Below, one piece after another: positions 25,437 through 51,177 of a stretch of 51,177 bases of DNA. Source of the stretch: Bacillota bacterium. GTDB taxonomy: Bacteria > Bacillota > Clostridia > Christensenellales > Pumilibacteraceae. A program made the translations under genes and the position numbers. How positions within the stretch are numbered: position 1 is the first letter of the stretch; every line of letters begins with the position of its first letter. The stretch spans positions 1 to 51,177 of the forward strand of contig WRDI01000002.1 in NCBI GenBank assembly GCA_009783515.1, given 5' to 3'. The notes below the pieces were generated by a model, which was not told the DNA's origin, searched no databases, and saw nothing but the letters and a program-made list of their open reading frames with translations.

Positions 25437-25993
25437 ATAATTTAGACGACATAAGGGCGGTAGCGCCCGCGGACGAGGCCAAATGGTATGTTCTTCACAC
25501 CTATTCCGGCTATGAAAATATGGTCAAGGAAAACCTCGAAATGGTTTTTAAAAAGAATAACCTCCTTGACCGTTTGATAGAAATCACCATTCCCGTCGAG
25601 GACGTGGTGGAGGAGAAAGCGGGTAAGCGCAAATTGGTGCAGCGCAGGATGTTCCCTTGCTATGTGCTTATAAAGATGATTTATGACAACAGCATGTGGC
25701 ACATGATTGTCCAGACCCGCGGAGTGACGGGATTTGTGGGCCCTCAAGGGCGCCCGATCCCGTTATCAGAGGAAGAAATCCGCAAAATGCACCTTGAGAA
25801 GGTTGTGGTAACCACCGACTTTAAGGTGGGCGACAGCGTAAAGGTCAACGACGGTCCTTTGGCAGGCTTTGTGGGGGAAATCGATTCTATCGACCCCGCC
25901 GCGGGCAAGGTGAAGGTCGTTGTAAGCATGTTCGGGCGACTCACCCCGGTGGATTTGGAGTTGTTCCAGGTGTCGCGGGTAGAAGAATTTTGA
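25433..25993 (+). CDS. nusG: Transcription factor NusG
   Basis: A 186-residue NusG. The NGN domain (about 15-115, KWYVLHTYSGYENMVKENLE) contacts RNA polymerase; the KOW domain (about 130-180, GDSVKVNDGPLAGFVGEI) links to NusE or Rho. Motifs MFPCYVLIKM and VRGVTGFVG-like (TRGVTGFVGPQGRPIPL) are standard. Translation is coupled to secE by a four-base overlap. A facing tandem array begins four bases after the stop, splitting nusG from rplK, which are normally close. Confidence 0.97.
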   Translation: MNNLDDIRAVAPADEAKWYVLHTYSGYENMVKENLEMVFKKNNLLDRLIEITIPVEDVVEEKAGKRKLVQRRMFPCYVLIKMIYDNSMWHMIVQTRGVTGFVGPQGRPIPLSEEEIRKMHLEKVVVTTDFKVGDSVKVNDGPLAGFVGEIDSIDPAAGKVKVVVSMFGRLTPVDLELFQVSRVEEF

Positions 25994-27341: not shown

Positions 27342-27378
27342 AAGTATAAGAGCATAATCTTAACAATAAATTAATAAT

Positions 27379-27440
27379 TCAACCGCAGACAGTAAGTGGT
27401 GTTACACCATAACCTCTGAAAGGGGGCTTACCGAGGTGAA
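27379..27440 (+). promoter_or_regulatory. L10 leader (binding site for the L10-L12 complex)
   Basis: The sequence ACCGCAGACAGTAAGTGG and CTTACCGAGGTG, in the gap between rplA and rplJ, matches the L10 leader of Firmicutes. GTAAG (27392-27396) pairs with CTTAC (27427-27431), enclosing a GGTG/CACC hairpin (27398-27408) and a CCTC/GGGG arm. In known cases L10(L12)4 binds here and represses rplJL. A further GTACC/GGTAC stem (27445-27489) lies downstream. Confidence 0.85.
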
Positions 27441-27569
27441 AAAAGTACCGATCTTTTTGAGTTTGAAACAACTTTTTACGATTTGGTACAAAGCGATTTT
27501 TCGTGTTATTTTTTCAGTCTCGGCGTATTGTCGGGACTGATTTTTATTAAAAACCAACAATAAAGAATC

Positions 27570-47124: not shown

Positions 47125-47319
47125 ATGAAACCGCTGACGAGCAGAGAGATAATAAAAAGGCTTAAGGAGGACGGCTGGTACGAGGTTCATGCGGTCGGCA
47201 GCCATCACCAATTCCGCCACCCGACAAAAAAAGGCAGGGTGACGGTTCAGCACCCGCAAAAGGACATAAGCGGCGACACGCTGAAGTCCGTCGAGCGGCA
47301 GTCGGGACTCAAATTTTAA
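47125..47319 (+). CDS. hicA: HicA mRNA interferase toxin
   Basis: A 64-residue HicA. The double-stranded-RNA-binding-like fold is visible: LTSREIIKRLKEDGWYEV, the catalytic histidine in GSHHQFRHP (about 25-33) and VTVQHPQKDIS. HicA cleaves mRNA when free. AGGAG precedes the ATG at 47125. The antitoxin gene begins 14 bases downstream. Confidence 0.95.
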   Translation: MKPLTSREIIKRLKEDGWYEVHAVGSHHQFRHPTKKGRVTVQHPQKDISGDTLKSVERQSGLKF

Positions 47320-47333
47320 TATGAGGTATAGTT

Positions 47334-47729
47334 ATGTATAAGGACTTTTATTGTTATCCAGCCGTTTTGGAGCAGGGTGAAAGCGTAAACGTGTTTTTCC
47401 CCGATTTTGACGGCTGTGTAAGCGGCGGGAATACCGTTGAGGAAGCTATCAAAAACGCCCGCGAGGCATTGAGTTTGCATGTTTTCGGAATGGAGGAGGA
47501 CGGCGAGGAGCTACCCGACCCGTCCGATATCAAGAGCATCGGGCTGAAAGAAAATCAATATACCGTGCTGGCGGATATTAACTATGGGCTGTTTAAGGAA
47601 AAAATGGAAAAGAAAGCCGTCGATAGAATGGTTACTCTGCCCAAATACCTGAACGCGGCGGCAAAGGCAAGCGGAATAAATATCTCACAGGTGTTGCAAG
47701 AGGCGTTAAGAAAGAAGCTGGGTGTATAA
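47334..47729 (+). CDS. hicB: HicB antitoxin
   Basis: A 131-residue HicB. The N-terminal domain (about 1-65, FYCYPAVLEQGESVNVFFPD, FDGCVSGGNTVEEAI) binds the toxin. The C-terminal ribbon-helix-helix (about 105-131, RMVTLPKYLNAAAKASGINI, SQVLQEAL) binds DNA. With hicA it makes a classic two-gene toxin-antitoxin operon, here placed directly upstream of the 23S rRNA unit. It is probably autoregulated through the CATATG repeats in its promoter. Confidence 0.95.
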   Translation: MYKDFYCYPAVLEQGESVNVFFPDFDGCVSGGNTVEEAIKNAREALSLHVFGMEEDGEELPDPSDIKSIGLKENQYTVLADINYGLFKEKMEKKAVDRMVTLPKYLNAAAKASGINISQVLQEALRKKLGV

Positions 47730-47886: not shown

Positions 47887-48033
47887 GGTGCACGTCTCTG
47901 CCAATAGTGAATATCCCGCCATATTTTTGGGCAAAATATGGCAAGAGGGTGAAAATCCTCTACTGATCATTGACCGCTGGTCATTGATATCTGAAATTAC
48001 TACAAATTACCAAAAAAACTTTGTGAAAAACGG

Positions 48034-48062
48034 TTGACACGGGGCTTTATATATGTTATCAT
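48034..48062 (+). promoter_or_regulatory. Strong promoter of the RNA/23S unit
   Basis: TTGACA (48034-48039), 17-base spacer, TATCAT (48057-48062). Transcription should start near 48069. This is the only strong promoter seen before the 23S gene. Confidence 0.85.
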
Positions 48063-48068
48063 ATGCTC

Positions 48069-48171
48069 CTGCCGACTGATTTTGTCGGCGCCGCGACACA
48101 GGACAACCAAGTATTAGCAGTAATACCGCTGGGAGCATAACGTACCGTAGTGGTGCTTGTATGCTTTTTTT
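48069..48171 (+). ncRNA. Unassigned structured RNA ending in an intrinsic terminator
   Basis: About 103 bases. Hairpin GCCGAC/GTCGGC (48071-48089), an unpaired-looking segment CCGCGACACAGGACAACCAA, hairpin GTATTA-gcag-TAATAC (48111-48126), then GCATAACGTACC / GGTGCTTGTATGC (48135-48146, 48152-48164) followed by TTTTTTT (48165-48171). The last stem has a five-base loop and is a good terminator. TATGCTCC (48062-48069) could instead pair with GGAGCATA (48132-48139), excluding the terminator. It looks like either a small RNA gene or an attenuator before the 23S gene. I recognise no known class. Confidence 0.55.
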
Positions 48172-48189
48172 ATGCCCTGTCGGGTATTG

Positions 48190-48618
48190 TACATTGACAA
48201 CTGCATATGGAAAGAGAAATAGGATATAGAAGAGATAAGCTATAATCGGGAGGTGTTTGCGCGCTTCCCGGAAAGACTGGAGAGTAATTTGGGCGATATA
48301 CGTATTAAAGCGTATAAAGCCATAAGCACTAAACAGGGTAGCCGGTCTGCTTTCAAAATCACAAGGGATTTTTGAACGGATTTATAAGATTAATTACGAC
48401 TTCTCACGCTTTCAGGCGCAGCGGCGCTGCGTAACAAAGCGGGAAAGACTGGGATTTAAACTAAAAAGCCTTAGAATGAATTGTGATTTTGAAAGCAGAA
48501 CGGCGCAAATAGCGTGTCTTTGATATACTAATAATTTTCAATCAAAAGTCTTGTAAACAATAATTGGGAATAGACGACGGGCTTAGTTTTAAGAAATTAA
48601 AGCGAAAGCCTGTAAATA
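48190..48618 (+). other. Structured 23S leader with a perfect 19-bp inverted repeat
   Basis: The sequence ACATTGACAACTGCATATGG (from 48191) resembles the ACATTGAAAACTGCATA box common in Firmicute 16S-23S spacers. TCTGCTTTCAAAATCACAA (48346-48364) is perfectly complementary to 48481-48499; after one mismatch, GCCG/CGGC adds four more pairs. Inside is CGCAGC-ggc-GCTGCG (near 48417-48431). It is probably a processing or antitermination structure of the precursor rRNA. No 16S or tRNA is present. Confidence 0.75.

Positions 48619-51177
<2,559 letters not shown>

Follow-up and report, generated by a model that had tools for sequence, protein, structure and literature searches.

Bacterial 16S and 23S rRNAs are normally kept equal through co-transcription. 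In Escherichia coli, the rrn leader is subject to pausing and attenuation, that is, to premature termination in an rRNA leader, as in the proposal made below; that leader precedes a linked 16S-23S operon, unlike the leader described here, and we know of no conserved element in it resembling the P2 hairpin of this report. Unlinked rRNA genes as such are already known (Brewer 2020, as far as PMC8178347 relays that work). Roles in rRNA antitermination are known for the ribosomal proteins S4 and S10, which belong there to the boxA system (PMC10931766), and LoaP is an antiterminator that acts by binding an RNA hairpin (PMC12691694). In the literature searched, we found nothing relevant on an rRNA-leader attenuator of the kind proposed here.

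The window (the whole stretch of DNA analysed, 51,177 nt) is contig C2 of a Clostridia MAG, a draft genome of 1.49 Mb in 140 contigs. It ends in a 23S rRNA gene on the forward strand (48619..51177; Rfam RF02541, 2427.9 bits), which is truncated by the contig end. No 16S gene precedes it or is present elsewhere in the window, and the organism's own 16S gene sits on a separate contig with its own promoter; the 23S gene is therefore unlinked from 16S. The element, which an earlier note on this DNA had placed before the 23S leader, lies wholly inside that leader, the gene itself starting at 48619, about 410 nt from the boxA-like site. The leader also contains a long inverted repeat, GTCTGCTTTCAAAATCACAA at 48341-48366 and TTGTGATTTTGAAAGCAGA at 48480-48505, possibly a processing stem. 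Small HicA-like and HicB-like toxin-antitoxin genes were recognized by eye immediately 5' of the 23S promoter (47125-47729), and an L10 leader (RF00557) is located at 27365-27511, about 1.4 kb 3' of the NusG gene (25484-25963).

All parts of the element are on the forward strand. A scan located a sigma-70-type promoter, TTGACA-17-TATCAT with TG before the -10, at 48034..48062 (11/12 matches), bearing out the consensus promoter that the earlier note had seen ahead of the hairpins; relatives have the same promoter type. Hairpin 1 (GCCGAC..GTCGGC, 48071..48089), identified by folding and covariation, would lie at the 5' end predicted for the transcript; in relatives it is usually RGCTGTC..GACAGC, and it occurs in 16S leaders too. 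The P2 hairpin (48107..48132) has the conserved core CCA-A-GTAT..ATAC-CGC-TGG, as established by comparison of 22 representatives, with a 1x3 internal loop in which A is opposite CGC. Next come P3 (48133..48166; base AGCATA..TATGCTT), a terminator-like hairpin identified by fold and covariation, and a T7 tract (48165..48171) completing a signal like that of an intrinsic terminator. The earlier reading of two hairpins and a terminator with seven T residues thus agrees with the fold and with conservation in relatives. The segment GACACAGGACAACCAA, however, had been taken to be single-stranded; in the minimum-energy fold of 48069-48185, positions 48090..48105 pair with 48173..48185 to form P1, a pairing also seen across the family, and the CCAA of that segment is the 5' strand of P2. 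The 3' strand of P1 is present only in read-through RNA. The boxA-like sequence CATTGACAACTGCATA follows 3' of the terminator at 48192..48207; within the order it is conserved among 23S leaders and, by analogy with the known Firmicutes rRNA boxA, is predicted to function as such.

The fold of the window sequence alone only modestly beats shuffles (z -1.4 to -1.7), and comparison across genomes was therefore needed; P3 was also not listed by a simple terminator scan of the window. As the earlier note had supposed, no described class was recognized: Rfam 15 gave no match in 47900-48640, with E values as high as 5 allowed, and only LSU rRNA was matched at 12 homologous loci. The proposed search of related genomes was positive, in that the same architecture, counted as a P2 core and a P3 with U-run 5' of the boxA-like site, was present in 24/26 readable 23S leaders of the window's family (f1, Pumilibacteraceae), and the element is carried by Pumilibacter muris and P. 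intestinalis of this gut Clostridia family. The f1 23S copies without P2 and P3 include L034, L046, L193 and L194; the first two are the exceptions in the count and belong to genomes G002 and G014, each with a second locus carrying the element. Beyond that count, two element-free copies were found, one in G019, which also has an element-bearing copy, and one in G010, so that at least G002, G014 and G019 contain both kinds. A covariance model, R1, in which P2 is paired and the remainder is plain sequence (P3 was left unpaired because MAFFT misaligns the terminator arms, and was tested separately), matched 35/60 f1 genomes, a lower bound because R1 misses divergent f1 members visible by eye (e.g. 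L042, L058 and L060). These matches were at one site per genome, with two in G027, nearly all of the genomes being drafts in which repeats may be collapsed. R1 had no match in 41 genomes of other families of the order and, across 391 genomes of the class, matched only the window's own genome.

When 396 genomes of the order were scanned with an IUPAC pattern of P2, it was found in 22 f1 genomes and, by chance, at one place elsewhere. The pattern matches beyond f1 (G285 in the order, and five more from other phyla or families) were rejected as chance or coding matches from which the rest of the leader is missing. P2 as a motif ahead of other genes was likewise discarded, since its sole other match in the own genome lies within a coding gene resembling cysteine desulfurase. 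A reading of P2 as a copy of a site in 23S rRNA was also rejected: no identical core was present in the 2559 bases of the truncated 23S gene, in which loose two-strand matches, an uninformative criterion, also occur. In the single genome of f31, another family of the order (G090), the interval between promoter and 23S (L197) contains a terminator-like hairpin with T7 and the P2-like AUGGUUUGAACCUCAU, which may represent, from this one sequence, an older or distant relative of the element.

The element was confined to 23S leaders, no P2 core being found in any of the 17 readable 16S leaders of f1. The rRNA promoter type is present in these leaders, which come from 17 genomes; most also have the GCTGTC hairpin, a boxA-like site is usual, and 16 of them have no convincing hairpin with a U-run. 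The own 16S leader (L087) has a short CCCGG hairpin and then TTTTTT near the transcript start, which is not common to the others, as well as tandem GTGGACA and CAACCGT repeats. Among the sister families, f33 has the usual linked order 16S-tRNA-tRNA-23S, and f8, f10, f14, f17 and f25 have a 23S gene that is likewise unlinked, with tRNA-Ala and tRNA-Ile in its leader; in L188, L189, L191, L196 and L059, the interval from promoter to 23S contains tRNA-Ala(TGC) and tRNA-Ile(GAT). The f1 element thus occupies the place of two tRNAs.

To analyse the structure we used 22 representatives of <80% identity and a permutation test in which each leader's own partner strands were compared, after centring, with strands from other genomes; because the representatives still share kinship, the permutation p-values are optimistic. 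The P3 stem was found to covary (z 5.0, permutation p below 5e-5), its pair changes being compensatory, and a U-run of 6 to 8 (in one case UUUUAUU) is directly 3' of P3 in 22/22 representatives, giving the covarying hairpin and U-run of an intrinsic terminator. Covariation was also detected in hairpin 1 (permutation p = 0.003) and in P1, the leader strand against the strand after the U-run (z 3.15, permutation p = 0.0018; in a second form of the test, p = 0.0055, with Fisher 3e-4 on shuffles); P1 was judged by the centred permutation and shuffle tests, since whole-duplex energies are confounded by length. The covariation among homologues that the earlier note had proposed to look for is thus present, and such comparisons, together with the conservation, lift the predicted element above chance. 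Because P1 can form only in read-through RNA, the structure of the full-length transcript appears to be under selection, and P1, P2 and P3 could together be a domain for cleavage or folding of pre-23S RNA, in processing or assembly, with the U-run incidental; the position of the element, at the site of the tRNA-Ala and tRNA-Ile of sister families, would also suit such a role. However, processing needs no U-run, which abuts P3 in every representative, and genomes with two copies have element-free 23S leaders, and we consider a processing domain quite unlikely.

The consensus of P2 in the 22 representatives is YCA-W-GUAY, a loop and RUAC-CKC-UGR, and its internal loop is asymmetric (1x3). Pairs CA/UG and GUA/UAC, which flank this internal loop, do not vary, the outer pair switches from C-G to U-A, representing covariation, and the pairs towards the loop change in step in most members. 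Near-invariant nucleotides round an internal loop are, as a sequence pattern, as expected of a binding site. In L047 and L054 (with L198), the P2 loop is enlarged by insertions, from roughly 30 to more than 100 nt long, that bring in extra hairpins, and the internal loop is retained. Most unpaired regions of the element are not conserved, which bears on one of the two possibilities raised in the earlier note, a highly expressed small RNA or attenuation of rRNA synthesis. A small RNA that is abundant, about 100-120 nt long and active in trans, 23S being supplied by read-through, would fit the strong rRNA promoter, the terminator-like end and the lack of an Rfam match, but it would be expected neither to keep a fixed position between the 23S promoter and boxA, in single copy and never elsewhere, nor to leave its unpaired regions free to vary, and P1 would serve no purpose in it. 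This free-standing RNA is very unlikely in our view, and attenuation fits better, because the element was seen in 23S leaders alone, where it lies between promoter and boxA-like site, and because P1 cannot form without read-through.

The attenuation proposed here would not depend on strand exchange. The switch partner TATGCTCC suggested in the earlier note was not supported: its ATGCTCC, proposed to pair with the terminator arm, overlaps the expected start as well as the -10 and is not conserved, and the family lends no support to a competing pairing between leader and terminator 5' arm (permutation p = 0.79). For leader and 3' arm the p-value was 0.03, which is unconvincing among seven tests, and the conserved antiterminator pairing, excluding the terminator, by which a strand-exchange attenuator or riboswitch is recognized was not found in the family. 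Any control would therefore have to act through a bound factor or through kinetics. The lack of a competing structure would also be compatible with P3 being an unregulated partial terminator, setting a fixed lower level of 23S relative to 16S, or a hairpin pause at which factors load before boxA, with P2 merely insulating or strengthening P3; terminator strength also differs widely among members. But P2 is conserved in sequence far beyond the needs of insulation, in elements less than 80% alike, and a fixed loss of 23S would need a reason, given that several genomes showed one copy each of 16S and 23S. We therefore regard an unregulated P3 as unlikely.

Any control would most likely be exerted by a factor bound to P2, which adjoins the base of P3, and a large-subunit protein would be an attractive candidate. 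LoaP was rejected as a general factor, scoring above the cut-off in only 2/61 genomes searched; the remaining matches to the LoaP model in these 61 genomes were below the cut-off, as expected for housekeeping NusG. The best promoter-like site is 5' of the element (mean 10.2/12, versus 8.3 after it), and 23S transcripts should thus pass P3. Against attenuation stand the A+U-rich P3 of many members and, in 5/23 leaders, a 10/12 promoter-like match, built on the TTGACA of the boxA-like site, that is located 3' of the terminator. P3 precedes boxA, so that a complex loaded there could not yet protect the polymerase at P3.

On balance, we favour, with modest confidence, the explanation that the element is a family-specific transcription attenuator, acting in cis on the unlinked 23S rRNA gene, in which a factor reading P2 probably shifts the balance between termination and read-through. 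RNA polymerase would start at the rRNA-type promoter, make hairpin 1 and then P2, and meet the terminator P3 before the boxA-like site at which the rRNA antitermination complex would load. Part of the transcripts would stop in vivo at P3 (about 100 nt in the window), and the remainder would read through, P1 closing round P2 and P3 and 23S being made. A factor recognizing the conserved P2 internal loop, probably a protein and less likely a small molecule, would shift this balance.

In these genomes the 16S gene, too, is preceded by the promoter, and usually by boxA, but not by the element, and the likely purpose of the element would therefore be to keep 23S output in step with 16S or with the available large-subunit proteins, which suggests that 23S output is set by the cell separately from that of 16S. 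More tentatively, and as a possibility rather than an expectation, a dedicated RNA sensor may adjust 23S synthesis independently of 16S where the rRNA genes are unlinked, for example with free large-subunit protein acting at the P2 internal loop, giving rRNA feedback by conditional attenuation. A conserved attenuator of 23S only would be a concrete and testable answer to how 16S and 23S are balanced in lineages with unlinked genes, and the presence of the element in the two Pumilibacter species, both represented by named strains that have genome records, makes it testable in a culturable commensal. Judged from its sequence and structure, the element is a candidate new RNA family and a putative new form of leader attenuation, and such an attenuator would extend the catalogue of structured RNAs accordingly.

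T-box leaders are similar in being Firmicutes leaders with a terminator, but the element has no RF00230 match, specifier domain or strand exchange. The boxA/NusB-S10 system acts in the same kind of leader, with a boxA-like site, and concerns read-through of rRNA; the element, however, precedes boxA and is restricted to 23S leaders, and boxA cannot yet have acted when P3 is made. In the LoaP-dfn system (PMC12691694), an RNA hairpin 5' of an intrinsic terminator is likewise read, there by a protein and without strand exchange, but that hairpin is of the UNCG type, which the element lacks, and LoaP is rare in the genomes searched, as given above. The leader attenuators of Firmicutes ribosomal-protein genes, such as the L10 leader (RF00557), share with the element a conserved leader hairpin before an intrinsic terminator and, by analogy, a ribosome component as a plausible controller. 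They show no sequence or covariance-model match to the element, in which no conserved antiterminator pairing was found, and they control mRNA, whereas the element precedes an rRNA gene, so that attenuation would act here on rRNA itself rather than on ribosomal-protein mRNA.
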